From Bacteroidota bacterium (GTDB taxonomy: Bacteria; Bacteroidota; Bacteroidia; Chitinophagales; JADIYW01): 64,000 nt of DNA. The notes beneath the pieces are model-generated. The model was given only the letters and a program-made list of their open reading frames with translations, was not told the origin of the DNA and searched no databases. Of this stretch, positions 41,544 through 56,417 are shown in pieces. The stretch's first letter is position 1. Every line of letters begins with the position of its first letter. The translations under genes were made by a program, and so were the position numbers. The stretch spans positions 134,096 through 198,095 of the forward strand of contig CAUJCO010000006.1 in assembly GCA_963169645.1 (NCBI GenBank), in the 5' to 3' direction.

Positions 41544-44500
41544 TTATTGGTGGATAAGATATTTTAAATAAAGAATGGTTTCATTAAGTTGATATATACT
41601 TTTTAAGAAATTCAATTTTGTATTTCCGGCGGTTTGCAATGCCATTAAATATTCAACATAATCAATATCTCCAGTACGATAACCAACTTGCGCATTTTGA
41701 ATTATTTCATTTGCATTCGGTAATGCTGTATCGTTGTAATATTGATATTCTTGTTTGCGTTGTTGATATTGTTCGATAGCATTTTGTTGTTGCGTGCGTA
41801 ATTCTTGGAGCTTGTAATCTGCAATTGTTTCAATAGCTTGTTTTTGATAATCTAACGCTTTTATTTTTGCTTTTGTGGCGCCAAATGAAACCGGAATTTG
41901 TATGCCAACGCTACCAACATGAAATCTTTTTTTACCATTAAAATACTCGTCTTGTCCGTCTATCGTTTGAAATCCAATTAATGATTGATTGGTGTAACCT
42001 AAAGTAAAGTCAGGTAAGGCTTGTGCTTTTTCAACCTTTTGTGTTTGTGTAAGAATGGCAGCTTCTTGCAGTAATAACTGTATGTTTGGATGATTTTTTA
42101 ATGAAAAAGTATCACTTGCTGATAGCACATCAATTGGTAAATATGTGCTATCTGAATTTATTGAAAAATCATTTTCTGTATTCAACATAATGCTCAAATT
42201 ATTGTAGGCAATGTTGTAGTTGGTGTTGTTTTGTTTCCATAGTAATTGCATTTCTCCATGTTTTGTTTCGGCACTACTAATTTCAATTTTCTTTCCTTCT
42301 CCGGTTTTGTAACGTACCGTTGCTGCTTGCAAAAATGCGGTGTACAAACTATCTAAATAGAGTAGCTGTTTTTTATTGTGTTCTAAAAATAATAGTTCGT
42401 TGTACAACTTTCTAACAGTATATACAAGCTCATTTTTTGTGATTTCTTGTTGCCATTTTTGTCCTTGTAATTCTGCATTGATTAATTGTTTTTTTGCATT
42501 AAATACAGTTGGAAATGGAATAGTTTGTTCTATGCTAACGGCATGGTCGAATTGAATGCTGCTGTATTGTCCAAATTGTGTATTTAAGGATAGTTTAGGA
42601 AATTCTCTTGCAGATTTTTGTGCGTTCTGTTTAGCTTGTATTTCCAAATTTTGAGCCTTTATTTCCGGATTATTTTTTGTTGCTAATTCAATGGCTTGTT
42701 CTACTGTTAATACTTGTCTATTTTGTGCGGTTACATTTGAAGTAACATTCAATAGCAATATACCTAAAAGTAAAATTGTTGTTTTCATCGATTTATTTTT
42801 TGTTTGGAAGATGGATTGAAATACGATGTATAATAAAGGCAATACAAAAAGGGTAAGCAGCGTAGCACTTATCAAACCTCCAATAACTACGGTAGCTAAT
42901 GGTTTTTGTACTTCGGCTCCTGCACTGTTACTTAATGCCATCGGCAGAAATCCTAAAGATGCAACAGTAGCTGTCATGAGTACAGGTCGCAAACGAATTT
43001 TTGTACCTTCATACACTCTATGCAAAATATCATTAATGCCTTCTTTTTCAAGTTGGTTAAATGTGCCAATTAATACGATTCCATTTAAAACGGCAACACC
43101 AAATAGTGCAATAAAACCGACACCTGCGGAAATACTAAATGGCATATCTCTGATTAACAAAGCAAATACACCGCCTATGGCACTCATCGGAATGGCTGTA
43201 AATATGAGCATTGCTTGCGCAAACGAACGAAAAGTAAGATAGAGTAAGATGAAAATAAGTAGTAAGGAAATTGGTACAACTATCATTAATCGATTGCTTG
43301 CTTTTTGTAAGTTCTCAAACGTTCCGCCATAGGCAAAGTAATATCCGGATGGCAATTTTATGTGTTGTTCTAATTTTTCTTGAATTTCTGCTACGATACT
43401 TTTTACATCTCTATTTTTTACATTAAAACCAATGACAATTCTTCTTTTTCCGGCTTCTCTACTTATTTGTGCTGCACCTAATTTGTACGAAATGTTGGCC
43501 ACTTGTGATAGCGGAATTTGCGAGCCATAATTGGTCGGTATCAATAAGTTTTGTACATCGTTGATGGAATTTTTATGTGTGCTATCTAAACGTACTACTA
43601 AATCGAATTTACGTTCGTTTTCATACACGACACCGGCTGATTTTCCTGCAAATGCTGTGCTAATTATGCTGTTTACATCTTCCACATTTAAACCATAATT
43701 CGCCATTCTATTTCGGTCATATTCAATATTGATTTGTGGTAAACCACTTACACGTTCTATTTGTGGAGCTGAAATTCCTTCAATTGTTTGTAGTACGTTG
43801 CTGACACTCTCAGCATAACGACTTAAAGTATCCATATTTTCTCCAAAAATTTTTACGGCTACGTCTTGACGGATTCCGGTCATTAGCTCGTTGAAGCGCA
43901 TTTGTATCGGTTGGTTTTTTTCAAAAAATATTCCGGGAATTACTTCCAATTTTTCCATCATCTCATCTGCAAGTTCATCGTATGTTTTATGCGTTTTCCA
44001 TTCCGATTGTGGTTTTAAAATAATCATCATGTCGGTTGCTTCCGGAGGCATTGGGTCAGTCGGCACTTCGGCACTTCCGGTTTTCCCGACTACCATTTTT
44101 ACTTCATCCATTTCTTTTATGATACGAGATGCTTGCATTGATGTTTCGATACTTTGTTGGAGCGATGCACCTTGAGGTAAAATACAGTGGAAAGCAAAAT
44201 CTCCTTCATTTAAAGTCGGAATAAATTCGCCACCCATCTTATTAAATAAGAATATGGAAAGTGCGAAAAGTGCTACGGAAAATGCAATTAAACTATTTTT
44301 AAATTGGATTGCTTTTTTTAATAAAGGTTGATAAAGTTGCTGAAAAAACTGCATCATTTTATCAGAAAAAGATAGATGATGTTGTTGTTTTAAGAACAAC
44401 GCACACATCATCGGAATATAAGTTAATGATAAGATGAGTGCACCTAAAATGGCAAAGCCTACTGTTTTTGCCATTGGTGCAAACATTTTCCCTTCAATAC

Positions 44501-45389
44501 CTATTAAGGTTAATATTGGAATGTAAACAATTAAGATTATTATTTCGCCAAATGCGGCACTGTTTCTGATTTTAGAGGATGATTGAAATACTTCTTCATC
44601 CATTTCTTTTTGTGTTAATGCATGTGTTGTTTTTCGCAATCCTAAGTGGTGTAACGTTGCTTCTACAATTATTACGGCACCATCTACAATTAAACCGAAA
44701 TCAATAGCACCTAAACTCATTAAATTGGCACTTACATGAAACACATTCATTAATCCTAATGCAAATAATAAGGATAATGGAATAGCAGATGCAACGATTA
44801 AACCGGCTCTTATATTTCCCAAAAATAATACCAATACAAAGATGACAATTAGTGCACCTTCGATAAGATTTTTTTCTACAGTACTGATGGCTCTTCCAAC
44901 TAATTCTGTTCTGTCTAAGAAGGGTTCTATCACCACATCATCCGGTAATGATTTTTGTATAGTTGGTATTTTTTCTTTGATCCTTTTTACAACTTCATTG
45001 CTATTTTCTCCTTTAAGCATCATCACTACACCACCTACTGCATCTACTTCACCGTTGTAGGTCATGGCTCCATAACGCACTGCACTTCCATAACGCACAT
45101 CAGCTACATCTCTAATAAAAATGGGAACATGTGTAGAATTGCTTTTTACTACAATATTTTTTATGTCATCTAAAGAGGATACCAGACCGATGCCACGAAT
45201 AAAATGCGAATAGGGTTTTTCATCAATATAAGTGCCACCTGTGTTTTGATTATTTTTTTCTAAGGCATTAAATATGTCCGGAATAGTAACACCCATTGCT
45301 CGGAGTCTATCCGGATTTACAGCAACTTCGTATTGTTTTAGTTGACCACCAAAACTATTGACTTCAGCAATGCCCGGAATTCCATACAA
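41544..45389 (-). CDS. C-terminal fragment: CzcA-like pump body plus fused TolC-like domain (1281 aa)
   Basis: The first ATG after the stop is 15 bases on (MYGIPGIAEV), but the conserved frame continues from the stop itself. It carries the porter subdomains, two sets of RND membrane segments and the metal-site motif GAIDFGLIVDGAV. MPPEATDMMIILKPQSEWK and PISLLLIFILLYLTF lie in the second half. From residue 868 the TolC-like part runs (TVEQAIELATKNNPEIKAQN, then PFPTVFNAKKQLINAELQG) with long helices, ending LNETILYLKYLIHQ. CzcA-TolC fusions occur in other Bacteroidota, so the fusion itself is probably genuine. Confidence 0.85.
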   Translation of the reverse strand: MYGIPGIAEVNSFGGQLKQYEVAVNPDRLRAMGVTIPDIFNALEKNNQNTGGTYIDEKPYSHFIRGIGLVSSLDDIKNIVVKSNSTHVPIFIRDVADVRYGSAVRYGAMTYNGEVDAVGGVVMMLKGENSNEVVKRIKEKIPTIQKSLPDDVVIEPFLDRTELVGRAISTVEKNLIEGALIVIFVLVLFLGNIRAGLIVASAIPLSLLFALGLMNVFHVSANLMSLGAIDFGLIVDGAVIIVEATLHHLGLRKTTHALTQKEMDEEVFQSSSKIRNSAAFGEIIILIVYIPILTLIGIEGKMFAPMAKTVGFAILGALILSLTYIPMMCALFLKQQHHLSFSDKMMQFFQQLYQPLLKKAIQFKNSLIAFSVALFALSIFLFNKMGGEFIPTLNEGDFAFHCILPQGASLQQSIETSMQASRIIKEMDEVKMVVGKTGSAEVPTDPMPPEATDMMIILKPQSEWKTHKTYDELADEMMEKLEVIPGIFFEKNQPIQMRFNELMTGIRQDVAVKIFGENMDTLSRYAESVSNVLQTIEGISAPQIERVSGLPQINIEYDRNRMANYGLNVEDVNSIISTAFAGKSAGVVYENERKFDLVVRLDSTHKNSINDVQNLLIPTNYGSQIPLSQVANISYKLGAAQISREAGKRRIVIGFNVKNRDVKSIVAEIQEKLEQHIKLPSGYYFAYGGTFENLQKASNRLMIVVPISLLLIFILLYLTFRSFAQAMLIFTAIPMSAIGGVFALLIRDMPFSISAGVGFIALFGVAVLNGIVLIGTFNQLEKEGINDILHRVYEGTKIRLRPVLMTATVASLGFLPMALSNSAGAEVQKPLATVVIGGLISATLLTLFVLPLLYIVFQSIFQTKNKSMKTTILLLGILLLNVTSNVTAQNRQVLTVEQAIELATKNNPEIKAQNLEIQAKQNAQKSAREFPKLSLNTQFGQYSSIQFDHAVSIEQTIPFPTVFNAKKQLINAELQGQKWQQEITKNELVYTVRKLYNELLFLEHNKKQLLYLDSLYTAFLQAATVRYKTGEGKKIEISSAETKHGEMQLLWKQNNTNYNIAYNNLSIMLNTENDFSINSDSTYLPIDVLSASDTFSLKNHPNIQLLLQEAAILTQTQKVEKAQALPDFTLGYTNQSLIGFQTIDGQDEYFNGKKRFHVGSVGIQIPVSFGATKAKIKALDYQKQAIETIADYKLQELRTQQQNAIEQYQQRKQEYQYYNDTALPNANEIIQNAQVGYRTGDIDYVEYLMALQTAGNTKLNFLKSIYQLNETILYLKYLIHQ

Positions 45390-45404
45390 TTGCCGAGCAA
45401 CTAT

Positions 45405-45902
45405 CTAATCTTGCATGGTACGCAAATCCATTGCAGAATATTGTTTTTTGCTCTCTTTTTTAGGATGTAAAATGTATTGGTAAACTTCGCCTAATCCGGT
45501 GCTGATAGGTGCTAACTCGGGCGTTCCAATGCCTTTGGGTATGTTTTCTTTAGCTTCAATTAATCGTTCATTGATGAGTTGGCGGGCAAAATAAATGTCC
45601 ACTTTATCTTTGAAAACTACCGTAATGACAGATAGTCCGAAACGAGAAATACTTCGAGTTTCTTCAATATCCGGTAAGTTGGCGATACTTTGCTCTATCG
45701 GAAAGGTGATGAGTTGTTCCACTTCTTGTCCGGCTAAGGTTGGACAAACAGTAATAATTTGCACTTGGTTGTTGGTAATGTCCGGAAGTGCGTCTATCGA
45801 CAATTGGGAAGCACTCCAGAAGCCCCAAATAGCTAGTAATATAGTGCCTATTCCAATAATGAGTTTATTGTGAATGCTAAATTTAATGATGCTATTTAAC
45901 AC
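45405..45902 (-). CDS. N-terminal fragment of the CzcA-like pump (165 aa)
   Basis: It contains the first membrane segment (LIIGIGTILLAIWGFW near 15-30) and the start of the periplasmic porter domain: SIDALPDITNNQVQIITVCPTLAGQEVEQLITFPIE, the conserved opening of HME-RND pumps, and TGLGEVYQYILHP. It ends at the in-frame TAG after LRTMQD. The fragment cannot be a functional transporter alone. Confidence 0.82.
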   Translation of the reverse strand: MLNSIIKFSIHNKLIIGIGTILLAIWGFWSASQLSIDALPDITNNQVQIITVCPTLAGQEVEQLITFPIEQSIANLPDIEETRSISRFGLSVITVVFKDKVDIYFARQLINERLIEAKENIPKGIGTPELAPISTGLGEVYQYILHPKKESKKQYSAMDLRTMQD

Positions 45903-52205: not shown

Positions 52206-52751
52206 ATGAGCAAGAAACTATTATTAAAATACGATCACATTCCCGGAATTAATACTATTGAAGTTTATCGTCAACACGAAGGATATCAAGCCTTAGAAAA
52301 AGCATTGAAAACAATGCAACCGGACGACGTTTTGGAAGAAGTGAAAAAATCAGGATTGCGTGGTAGAGGTGGTGCCGGTTTCCCAACCGGAATGAAATGG
52401 AGTTTCTTGGCAAAGCCGGAGGGAGTGTCGCGTTATTTGGTTTGCAATGCAGATGAATCGGAGCCGGGTACATTTAAAGATAGATATTTAATGGAACGCA
52501 TTCCGCATATTTTAATTGAAGGAATGATTATTTCAAGCTATGCTTTAGGTGCAAAAACAGCTTACATTTATGTGCGTGGCGAGTATTATTACATCATCAA
52601 AATTTTACAAAAAGCCATAAATGAAGCTTATGCTGCAGGTTTCTTAGGTAAAAATATTTTAGGTTCCGGTTATGATTTAGATTTATACGTACAACCCGGA
52701 GCAGGTGCATACATTTGTGGTGAAGAAACAGCCTTGTTAGAGTCGTTATAA
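52206..52751 (+). CDS. nuoF N-terminal fragment (181 aa)
   Basis: It holds the FMN/NADH-binding part ([31 protein letters not shown], then [20 protein letters not shown]) but lacks the cluster domain. It ends at the in-frame TAA of codon 182. As a separate protein it would not be expected to support NADH oxidation. Confidence 0.85.
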
Positions 52752-52862
52752 GGAAAAAGAGGTAATCCAAGAATAAAAACGCCTGTTCAGGCAGTTGCCG
52801 GATTATGGGGTTGCACATACGTTGTAAATAATGTAGAAACCATTGCCGATGTAGTTCCAATC

Positions 52863-53549
52863 GTGAACGAAGGTGGCGAAGCATTTTCTAAAATTGGAGT
52901 TGGAAAATCAACAGGAACTAAATTAATTTCTGCTTCCGGCCATATCAATAAACCGGGTGTATACGAAATAGAATTAGGTGTTCCGGTAGAAGAGTTTATT
53001 TATAGTGATGCCTATTGTGGAGGCATTCGCAATGGAAAAAAATTAAAAGCTGTGGTAGCAGGTGGTTCTTCTGTTCCTATTTTGCCGGCTGAATTGATAT
53101 TGAAAACAGCTAAAGGTGAACCACGTTTAATGACGTATGAATCGTTGAGTGATGGTGGTTTTGCTACAGGAACTATGTTAGGTTCCGGAGGTTTTATTGT
53201 AATGGATGAAGATACTTCAATTGTGAAAAATCTATTTACTTTTGCTCGTTTTTATAGGCATGAAAGTTGCGGACAATGTTCGCCATGTCGCGAAGGTACA
53301 AGCTGGATGGAAATGATATTGCGAAACTTTATTACCGGAAAAGCAAAAATGTCGGATATTGATTTGTTGTGGGATGTGCAATCAAAAATAGATGGGAAAA
53401 CAATTTGTCCATTAGGTGATGCGGCATCTTGGCCGGTGGCAGCTGCCATACGACATTTCCGCCACGAATTTGAGGAATACGTTAACAATCCGCAATCTAT
53501 CAAAGAAGTAAAACACTATTTCCGATTAAATAATTTACAAGAAGCTTAA
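52863..53549 (+). CDS. nuoF C-terminal fragment (228 aa)
   Basis: The first ATG after the stop is at 52863, but conserved coding sequence resumes directly at 52752 in the same frame. It carries the SLBB-like beta-grasp region (SASGHINKPGVYEIELGVPVEEFIY) and the N3 4Fe-4S domain. It probably cannot work without the N-terminal part. Confidence 0.85.
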   Translation: MNEGGEAFSKIGVGKSTGTKLISASGHINKPGVYEIELGVPVEEFIYSDAYCGGIRNGKKLKAVVAGGSSVPILPAELILKTAKGEPRLMTYESLSDGGFATGTMLGSGGFIVMDEDTSIVKNLFTFARFYRHESCGQCSPCREGTSWMEMILRNFITGKAKMSDIDLLWDVQSKIDGKTICPLGDAASWPVAAAIRHFRHEFEEYVNNPQSIKEVKHYFRLNNLQEA

Positions 53550-53687
53550 TTGCCATTTTAGTTTCTTTTGCTGCTGCTCTTGTTAGATTTATAATCTACT
53601 ACAATAGAATAAACATTAGCATATAAACTTACTTTTGTTTATCAAAAAACAGCGTATTCTGTCTTAATTTTATAAAAATGAAATTAA

Positions 53688-55166
53688 ATGATAGATGCTG
53701 AAGTGATTATTATTGGTTCCGGATTTTCCGGTATTGGTGCCGCCATCGAATTAAAGAAAGCTGGTTTTTCCTTTTTAGTTTTAGAAAGAGCATCTGATAT
53801 CGGCGGCACTTGGCGAGATAATCAATATCCGGGAATTGCCGTAGATATCACGTCGTTTACTTATTCTTATTCGTTTGAGCAATATCCCAATTGGAATAGA
53901 GTGTTTGCTAAAGGAGATGAGTTATATCAATATGCACAACATTGTGTAGATAAATATAACATCAGAGCTAATTTTCAATATAATGTTGATGTAGAGAAAG
54001 CTATATTTAACGAGCAAAATTCTACTTGGACTCTTATTGCAAAAAATGGAAAATCGTTTACATGTAATGTAATCATCTCTGCAACAGGAGCATTAACAGA
54101 TCCAAAATTTCCCGAAATAAAAGGCATTGAAAAGTTCAAAGGTGAATTGGTACATACGGCTCGTTGGAAACAAGATTTACAATTAAAAAATAAAAAAGTT
54201 GCTATCATCGGAACCGGTGCTTCCAGTGTGCAAATTGTACCAAACATTGCACCGGAAGTACAGAAATTAACTGTTTACCAACGCACACCAATTTGGATTA
54301 TGCCAAAGCCGGATACAACAATTCCGACATCCGTGAAAACACTCTTTCAAAAATTACCATTTACACAAAATAGCATCCGAAAAATAACAGACAAAATAAT
54401 GGAAACAGTATTGGTAACTGCAGTAGTAAACTACAAGCAATTGCCTGTTTTAGTTAAATCGTTAGAACAGTTTTGTTTGCAATTTTTAAAAATTCAAGTA
54501 AAGGATGAAAATATTCGAAAACAACTCACTCCTAAATACGGTTTTGGTTGCAAAAGACCAAGTTTTTCCAATACATATCTTTCGACTTTTAATAGGAAAA
54601 ATGTAGAATTAGTAACTACATCAATACAAGAAATTACGGCAAATGGAATTGTAACCAGCGATGGTATTGAAAGAAAAATGGATGTACTGATTGCTGCAAC
54701 AGGTTTTCATGTAATGAAAAATAGTAACTATCTTAATTATGAATTGTATGGAAAAAATAAGTTGGAATTAGGTGCTTATTGGGGACAAAACAGATTACAA
54801 GCCTACCAAGGTTGTGCCATTCCAAATTTTCCCAATTTCTTTATCATATTTGGACCGTATAGTGCTTCCGGATTGTCGTGGTTTAATATGATTGAAATTC
54901 AGATGTTACATATCATTCGGGTGTTGAAAGAGAAACGAAAAAGAAATGTTCAACAAGTAGAAATAAAACAAACAGAACACGATAAATATTTTAAATACAT
55001 TCTGAAGAATCAAGAGAATACCGTGTTTTTTAATAATAATTGCGGTACATCCAATTCGTATTATTTTGATAAGTTTGGCGATGCTCCTTTTCTTCGACCT
55101 TTAAGTGTTGCCAAGTCCAAGAAATTCAGCGAACATTCGGATTTAAATCACTATCAGTATCATTAA
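53688..55166 (+). CDS. flavin monooxygenase, Baeyer-Villiger type
   Basis: This is an FAD/NADPH-dependent monooxygenase of 492 residues. The FAD motif GSGFSGIGAAI is at 10-20, the NADPH motif IIGTGASSVQIVP near 164-176, and between them the Baeyer-Villiger fingerprint FKGELVHTARWK at 140-151 (F-x-G-x3-H-x3-W). The last position is Lys in place of the usual Pro or Asp. GGTWRDNQYPGIAVDI is the conserved third patch. Homologues oxidise ketones, aldehydes or heteroatoms, and the substrate is unknown. It sits between nuoF and nuoG, with 138 and 219 bases of non-coding sequence on either side. A TACTTTTG (53630-53637) could be its own -7 element. It is an unusual guest in a nuo operon. Confidence 0.88.
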   Translation: MIDAEVIIIGSGFSGIGAAIELKKAGFSFLVLERASDIGGTWRDNQYPGIAVDITSFTYSYSFEQYPNWNRVFAKGDELYQYAQHCVDKYNIRANFQYNVDVEKAIFNEQNSTWTLIAKNGKSFTCNVIISATGALTDPKFPEIKGIEKFKGELVHTARWKQDLQLKNKKVAIIGTGASSVQIVPNIAPEVQKLTVYQRTPIWIMPKPDTTIPTSVKTLFQKLPFTQNSIRKITDKIMETVLVTAVVNYKQLPVLVKSLEQFCLQFLKIQVKDENIRKQLTPKYGFGCKRPSFSNTYLSTFNRKNVELVTTSIQEITANGIVTSDGIERKMDVLIAATGFHVMKNSNYLNYELYGKNKLELGAYWGQNRLQAYQGCAIPNFPNFFIIFGPYSASGLSWFNMIEIQMLHIIRVLKEKRKRNVQQVEIKQTEHDKYFKYILKNQENTVFFNNNCGTSNSYYFDKFGDAPFLRPLSVAKSKKFSEHSDLNHYQYH

Positions 55167-55225
55167 TTTATCGCTAATTTTTTAAGTTGATTTATGATAG
55201 TAGTACTACATAAAATGCTGTTTTT

Positions 55226-55239
55226 CTGATTCAAATCAT
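55226..55239. promoter_or_regulatory. possible FNR/CRP-family operator upstream of nuoG
   Basis: CTGAT-TCAA-ATCAT keeps the central TGATnnnnATCA of the FNR/CRP consensus with changed outer bases. It lies 147 bases before nuoG in the gap after the monooxygenase. It is weak on its own. The perfect FNR-like palindrome at 26790 makes such a regulator more plausible. Confidence 0.28.
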
Positions 55240-55364
55240 ACGCATTTGACACAATATTCAATTTTGAAAAAAAGTTATCAACCTTTTGTAAAATCATGAA
55301 CAATTAAAGTGTTTTTAAATGAATTTATTTCATCTACTTTTTAGCTTTAATCATAATAGTATTG

Positions 55365-55372
55365 TATTTTTG
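55365..55372 (+). promoter_or_regulatory. possible -7 element before nuoG
   Basis: TATTTTTG fits TAnnTTTG and lies 13 bases before the nuoG ATG. No convincing TTG at proper spacing is seen. If active, it would give nuoG-N a separate transcription start after the inserted gene. Confidence 0.35.
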
Positions 55373-55385
55373 TAGTTTATTTGAT

Positions 55386-56417
55386 ATGGCTAAAGTTACG
55401 ATAGACGATATTACCATAGAAGTTCCGGACGGCACTACCATATTGCAAGCAGCAAGAATGATAGATGAGAAATATGGTACACATACAGCACCGCCAACCA
55501 TGTGCTATTATTCCAAATTAAAAACAACAGGTGGATATTGCAGAACTTGCATAGTAAGTGTTACACAAGGTTCAGAAAAAGACCCAAGACCAATGCCTAA
55601 ACCGGTAGCAAGTTGCCGTACCAATGTGATGGATGGCATGGTGGTAAAAAATAATACTTCGCCTGAATTATTAGAAGCACGTGCCGGTGTGGTAGAGTTC
55701 TTATTAATTAATCATCCGTTGGATTGTCCGGTATGCGATCAAGCCGGCGAATGTCATTTACAAGATTTAAGTTATGAAAATGGAGATGAAGGTTCTCGTT
55801 TTCAATTTCCTAAAAGAGTATATGAGCCAATCGATATTGGTGATAAAGTAAAATTAAACATGAATCGCTGCATCATGTGCTACAGATGCGTGAAAGTATG
55901 CGATCAAATTACGGATAATAGAGTACATGGTATGCTATACCGTGGAGCTGATTCAGAAATTTCTACCTATATCGAAAAAGCAATTGATAATGATTTTTCA
56001 GGAAACGTAATTGATGTATGTCCTGTGGGTGCATTAACCGATAGAACTTTCCGATTTAAAAGTAGAGTGTGGTTTACAAAACCGGTAGATGCACACCGCA
56101 ATTGCGAAACAGAAGGTTGTACCGGAAAAGTGCGTTTGTGGTTTAAAGGCGATGATGTATTGCGAGTTACCAGTAGAAAAGATCAATGGGGCGAAGCCGA
56201 AAGTTTTATTTGTAATACATGCCGTTTTGAAAAGAAAAATGCGAATGATTGGGTGATGGAAGGCCCAAGCAAAATTTCACATCATTCTGTTATTAATCAA
56301 AATCATTATGAATTACAACAAATTAAATTAGGTATAAAAAGACAAATCAAACATTTAACCGGAGTAAAAATTGATTTAGGAGAAGGTGCGTTAAATCCAA
56401 ACAATATTCAAAAATAA
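55386..56417 (+). CDS. nuoG: NADH-quinone oxidoreductase subunit G, short form without molybdopterin domain
   Basis: NuoG carries several iron-sulfur clusters of the electron wire. The ATG at 55386 (MAKVTIDDI, 343 residues) is chosen over an upstream in-frame TTG. A 2Fe-2S ferredoxin domain has cysteines 40, 52 and 55 plus one near 72 (VASCRTNV). The HPLDCPVCDQAGECHLQ His/Cys cluster (N5) follows, and NRCIMCYRCVKVC plus VIDVCPVGAL supply the two 4Fe-4S groups. The protein ends soon after, so the molybdopterin-like domain of E. coli NuoG is missing. A short form is usual in Bacteroidota and not a truncation. Confidence 0.92.
   Translation: MAKVTIDDITIEVPDGTTILQAARMIDEKYGTHTAPPTMCYYSKLKTTGGYCRTCIVSVTQGSEKDPRPMPKPVASCRTNVMDGMVVKNNTSPELLEARAGVVEFLLINHPLDCPVCDQAGECHLQDLSYENGDEGSRFQFPKRVYEPIDIGDKVKLNMNRCIMCYRCVKVCDQITDNRVHGMLYRGADSEISTYIEKAIDNDFSGNVIDVCPVGALTDRTFRFKSRVWFTKPVDAHRNCETEGCTGKVRLWFKGDDVLRVTSRKDQWGEAESFICNTCRFEKKNANDWVMEGPSKISHHSVINQNHYELQQIKLGIKRQIKHLTGVKIDLGEGALNPNNIQK

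Follow-up and report, generated by a model that had tools for sequence, protein, structure and literature searches.

A Baeyer-Villiger-type monooxygenase gene between nuoF and nuoG in three Chitinophagales species: a probable single insertion followed by a putative second promoter

The analyzed stretch of DNA (the window, 64,000 nt) comes from a Chitinophagales genome, G000, and carries a nuo operon for respiratory complex I on its forward strand. The gene order around the junction of interest is nuoF (52206-53549), a gap of 138 nt (53550-53687), a monooxygenase gene (53688-55166), a second gap of 219 nt (55167-55385) and nuoG (55386-56417). The nuoF gene, the only nuoF match in its own genome, matches TIGR01959 with an E-value of 4.8e-173 when an internal stop is read as X. 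The nuoG gene starts with ATG at 55386 and encodes a short form of the subunit (343 aa) with the domains PF22117 and PF10588; its TIGR01973 match, searched from codon 2, is partial and falls under the TIGR cut-off. The other nuo genes, whose names we assume from their sequence, presumably stand in the usual order before and after the insert. The flanking gene order is the same as in the standard nuo operon; the standard operon is uninterrupted, whereas here it is broken after nuoF, and a conserved promoter block lies ahead of nuoG. An earlier note on this DNA had described a flavin monooxygenase of 492 residues between nuoF and nuoG, flanking gaps of 138 and 219 bases and a broken nuoF directly upstream. 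The intact ORF, assigned to class B by Pfam and solved structures, the end of nuoF at 53549, the nuoG start at 55386 and an in-frame TAA in nuoF (52749-52751) bear out this description.

The monooxygenase ORF encodes 492 aa and contains no internal stops. Its product matches the Pfam families Pyr_redox_3 (PF13738, E = 7e-21) and FMO-like (PF00743, E = 1.6e-15). The top solved relative is 6a37_A (E = 7e-68), further ones are cyclohexanone, phenylacetone and steroid monooxygenases, and the whole set spans E-values of about 1e-67 to 1e-57. By these Pfam matches and solved relatives, the predicted product is a class B flavoprotein monooxygenase of the Baeyer-Villiger type. The type I Baeyer-Villiger monooxygenases (BVMOs) among these relatives share with it the first Rossmann motif, GGTWRDNQYPGIAVD and the core FxGxxxHxxxW of the second BVMO fingerprint, and the RP of 6a37 aligns with a KRP segment of the window enzyme. 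The first Rossmann motif is present in all four orthologs that we identified (in G000 and its congeners G001, G002 and G003). The first fingerprint, GGTWRDNQYPGIAVD, is intact in all four and fits the definition [A/G]GxWxxxx[F/Y]P[G/M]xxxD as worded in the excerpt of PMC4498894. The second fingerprint, FxGxxxHxxxW[P/D], retains its core in 4/4 orthologs. In type I BVMOs P or D follows this core, whereas the residues found here are K, N, K and D in G000 to G003, respectively, so that the full form occurs in one of the four and the window copy is without it. Likewise, the second Rossmann motif of type I BVMOs ends in G or A, while that of all four orthologs reads GTGASS or GTGATS, with a final S. 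The window enzyme is also shorter than the solved type I BVMOs, which mostly have 532-573 residues. A flavin-containing monooxygenase (FMO), defined in the excerpt of PMC10682829 by FxGxxxHxxx(Y/F)(K/R) without BVMO fingerprints, was considered and rejected, as none of the four orthologs fits that FMO fingerprint. An AlphaFold model from a two-row alignment reached a mean pLDDT of 40, too low to weigh on the fold either way. By sequence, the enzyme would work like the Baeyer-Villiger type, with two motif positions that deviate from strict membership; judged from its family, it probably uses FAD, NADPH and O2 on an organic substrate of its own.

Among the plasmid matches listed, the best is a monooxygenase (H1) on a plasmid of Mycolicibacterium chubuense NBB4, with 42.5% identity over 96%; GIAVD and GCKRP are common to H1 and the window enzyme. 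The neighbours of H1 encode an SDR, an alpha/beta hydrolase, a P450 and a fatty acid-CoA ligase, in contrast to the nuo setting of the window gene. By analogy, this mycobacterial cluster hints at a role in ketone or lipid breakdown.

The TAA at codon 182 of nuoF cuts the only copy of this gene in the genome. Identity to six relatives is 83-94% before the stop and 84-92% after it, and none of the aligned nuoF genes of the seven other genus genomes (in G002, over residues 9-446) contains an internal stop. The nuoF stop is thus private to G000 among the eight genomes and is therefore no consequence of the insertion; it is either very new or a consensus error. Eight same-frame stops were flagged in the window, of which two cut conserved genes, four were read on inspection as ordinary neighbouring genes, and two are the ends of listed ORFs (58773 and 61945). 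Besides nuoF, the conserved gene affected lies on the reverse strand (41544-45902) and has an in-frame TAG at 45405-45407. We take it to be a CzcA/CusA-like RND pump; its long ORF (41544-45389) presumably continues from the pump into a TolC-type outer membrane protein, and the two may be fused.

The nuoF-nuoG junction was compared across the eight genomes of the genus. The monooxygenase gene occupies it in three related environmental bacteria: the window genome, G001, where nuoF, the monooxygenase gene and nuoG lie on one contig, and G002, whose monooxygenase gene is broken up between the ends of two contigs, one carrying nuoF and the other nuoG, with 124 identical bases shared by these ends. 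We infer that the G002 gene is continuous across these contigs. In the remaining five genomes (G003 to G007), nuoF and nuoG either share one base or leave at most 14 nt between them. No ortholog was found at E 1e-120 in G004 to G007, where the best match is a paralogue of 39-41% identity; the completeness of G004 and G005 is 85% and 95%, respectively. A search for NuoG in 60 genomes of the order matched 32, including G000 and G002. The loci examined outside the genus number 29, namely 28 from this search and that of G010, with G059 and G038 (no locus) left out. None of the 29 shows the monooxygenase gene at nuoG. Directly before nuoG, 21 of them have nuoF, at distances of about 10 to 162 nt in 20 cases and of about 514 nt in one. 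The adjacency of nuoF and nuoG is thus the usual state, as the earlier note had held, in five of eight genomes within the genus and 21 of 29 loci outside it. The comparison of nuo operons among relatives that the note had proposed found the gene order to differ, so the arrangement of the window is not common to all relatives. These data support a lineage-specific insertion into the nuo operon, as read from gene order.

The eight other loci outside the genus lack nuoF within the 1.5 kb covered beside nuoG. The two genes are on separate contigs in six of them (G053, G063, G035, G015, G019 and G050), and nuoG sits at a contig edge in G043 and G047. Of the two genomes left out, G038 has nuoF and nuoG on the same contig at a distance of about 78 kb, and G059 has a nuoF match of only 40%. 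Separation of nuoF from nuoG occurs in several families of the order. The one gap of about 514 nt belongs to G044 and holds an unrelated ORF of 126 aa (L079, 1029-1409), which we assume to resemble four-helix-bundle proteins. Among the literature matches listed, none reports in its title or abstract that a nuo operon contains a monooxygenase gene. According to the excerpt of PMC12361115, most clades mix split and single-cluster nuo genes. Splitting is common in that account, whereas the two halves described here stay neighbours with one gene between them.

A species tree was built on NuoD, E, F, G and H, all five of which are encoded by nuo genes of the locus under study. The three species with the insertion are monophyletic in this tree (support 99/99), with the uninserted G005 as their sister, and one change suffices to explain the insertion state; a further analysis gave a concordant result. 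A tree forced to join G003 with the trio was rejected (p-AU 6e-7). We also placed the protein in a monooxygenase tree, another step proposed for this locus. The copy of G003 falls outside the trio, followed by G001 and then by G000 with G002, with support of 98/99, 93/94 and 84/84, of which the latter two lie under the 95/80 mark; this order matches that of the species. The four copies share 72-79% pairwise protein identity with dN of 0.13-0.20. Within the trio dS is 1.4-1.8, against G003 it is saturated, and changes are concentrated at third codon positions. The low dN relative to dS in the trio argues that the monooxygenase has been kept under purifying selection. Most simply, the pattern would reflect one insertion inherited through three species; being common to three species of one clade, the insertion predates their split. 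The suggestion of a recent insertion therefore holds in part: the insertion is lineage-specific (three of eight genomes in the genus, none of 29 loci outside), but its presence in three species with 72-79% identity and dS of 1.4-1.8 argues against a recent date.

The gap between the monooxygenase gene and nuoG is poorly conserved apart from its last part. This part contains a block of 30 nt (55344-55373, forward strand) in which the three inserted species agree at 26 columns; this best ungapped 30-base match compares with a maximum of 17 and a mean of 14.6 identical columns in 60 dinucleotide shuffles. Within the block lies TATTTTTG (55365-55372), a -7 element of the Bacteroidota type, which all three inserted species have at a distance that agrees to within one base. 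It fits the -7 consensus of Bacteroidota sigma-ABfr, given as TANNTTTG/TAHHTTTG in the excerpt of PMC6847099. About 24 bases ahead of it, TTAG, TTAG and TTCG stand where the -33 element TTTG would be placed, as judged by eye and without a score. With up to three mismatches allowed, the block was found once per inserted genome, in all three of them, and nowhere in the five uninserted genomes of the genus. The uninserted species have no room for it because their nuoF and nuoG abut or almost do so. The block thus either came with the insert or arose later. A possible second promoter before nuoG, as proposed in the earlier note, is strengthened by this conservation, by the fit to the consensus and by the absence of the block from the uninserted genomes. 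This predicted promoter is well supported and forms the best-supported part of the finding.

The region upstream of the monooxygenase gene gave a different result for the promoter that had been suggested there. The weak -7-like motif TACTTTTG (53630-53637, forward strand) occurs in G000 only, and the corresponding gaps of G001, G002 and G003 contain no TAnnTTTG. This pattern is expected by chance in 13-20% of shuffled gaps, and in 20% (0.2) for the window gap. Being not conserved and likely due to chance, TACTTTTG was rejected as the monooxygenase's own promoter. A 12-nt palindrome, TTACATAAGTAA, is located at -59 and -58 from the monooxygenase start in G001 and G002, respectively (L039 and L040), and is degenerate in G000; it could belong to an unrecognised promoter or operator of the gene. 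No terminator-like sites were found on the forward strand between 53400 and 55500, and in fold predictions five stretches of the gaps did not clearly outdo shuffles (z from -0.85 to 1.07). A mobile element was also considered and rejected: repeats of note are absent from the flanks of the insert, and an inverted pair of 34 nt at 71% is weak in A+T-rich DNA.

Taken as a whole, these observations make it quite probable that a single event in the ancestor of the trio brought the monooxygenase gene into the nuoF-nuoG junction, that nuoG is served by a conserved promoter and that the nuo genes now form two units. The opposite view, that the insertion was created by an assembly artefact, could appeal to the nonsense codons in two conserved genes of the window, nuoF and the RND pump-like gene (45405-45407), yet the same junctions recur on a single contig in G001 and at both flanks in G002; for the insertion it is refuted, and we regard it as extremely improbable. 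Another reading is that the monooxygenase is kept in the nuo operon by a tie between respiration and either the enzyme's product or its use of NADPH and O2. The retention of the position in three species and the strong purifying selection agree with such a coupling, but the ortholog in G003 lies away from nuo, and the nuoF-nuoG junction has undergone other events, namely the G044 ORF and the location of nuoF and nuoG on separate contigs in six other genomes. We consider this coupling very unlikely. The metabolic link with respiration raised in the earlier note is weakened by the ortholog at a hem locus and by these other events at the junction, and stays a guess.

The single insertion leaves two accounts of where the gene came from: relocation within the genus, which is one version of it, and horizontal transfer, another version of the origin. 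In G003 the ortholog (74% identity) lies in reverse orientation between hemL and hemH, which may be an older home of the gene or the site of a separate arrival. Relocation, to which we give nearly an even chance, would have an old gene of the genus move from elsewhere, such as the hemL-hemH site, to nuo in the ancestor of the trio and be lost in the other species. The path between the G003 and window copies (0.37) agrees with this, being about as long as that of a 35-41% paralogue between G003 and G000 in the same tree (0.34); this paralogue is present in at least seven of the eight species. The uninserted sister G005 gave no hemL match at E 1e-100, and a copy could hide there in an assembly gap. 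On the other hand, several losses would be needed, as hemL and hemH abut with no gene between them in G004 and G006, and the stretches around hemL in G000 to G002 show no hemH and no trace of an old home. Horizontal transfer, by which an unsampled donor would have supplied the gene separately to the ancestor of the trio and to G003, at different sites, is plausible while falling somewhat short of an even chance. It accords with two unrelated insertion sites, with patchy presence and with a nuo tree that keeps G003 apart from the trio (p-AU 6e-7), but the genomes and plasmids searched yielded no sequence resembling a donor. At E 1e-140, no match came from any of 248 genomes of the order other than the four carriers (six best candidates scored in each), and besides the window's own none of 395 genomes of the phylum gave one at 1e-110 (three scored in each), the samples of both order and phylum (Bacteroidota) being part of what exists. 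All 715 matching plasmid records stay under 60% identity, with 42.5% as the best among those listed.

The hemL-hemH junction that holds the G003 monooxygenase gene carries two genes in G007 (L064, 3434-4888), which we take to encode a MerR-like regulator and an SDR-like protein. This insert is flanked by a 29-nt direct repeat (93%) within hairpin-like sequence.

Under the single-insertion reading, gene order and the tree indicate that a single-gene BVMO-type unit was inserted between nuoF and nuoG on one occasion, in an ancestor shared by three species of one Chitinophagales genus. A Bacteroidota-type promoter directly ahead of nuoG, presumably active, has been maintained by selection, as its conservation shows. 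The nuo operon would then consist of two transcription units. One would be nuoA-F, probably joined by the monooxygenase gene as a distal gene reached by read-through; the other, nuoG-N, would be driven from the new promoter. It is unlikely, if conceivable, that the amounts of nuoE, nuoF and monooxygenase are controlled separately from those of nuoG-N, and that complex I of the strain, whose sole nuoF is cut, may lack its NADH-oxidising subunit.

The finding is a solid but fairly ordinary operon rearrangement, which leaves the picture of complex I and of Baeyer-Villiger enzymes unchanged. It provides a natural case in which another gene interrupts the operon of a central complex and a seemingly new, conserved promoter keeps that operon working, and close relatives that carry the insert can be set against others that lack it to test what operon polarity costs.
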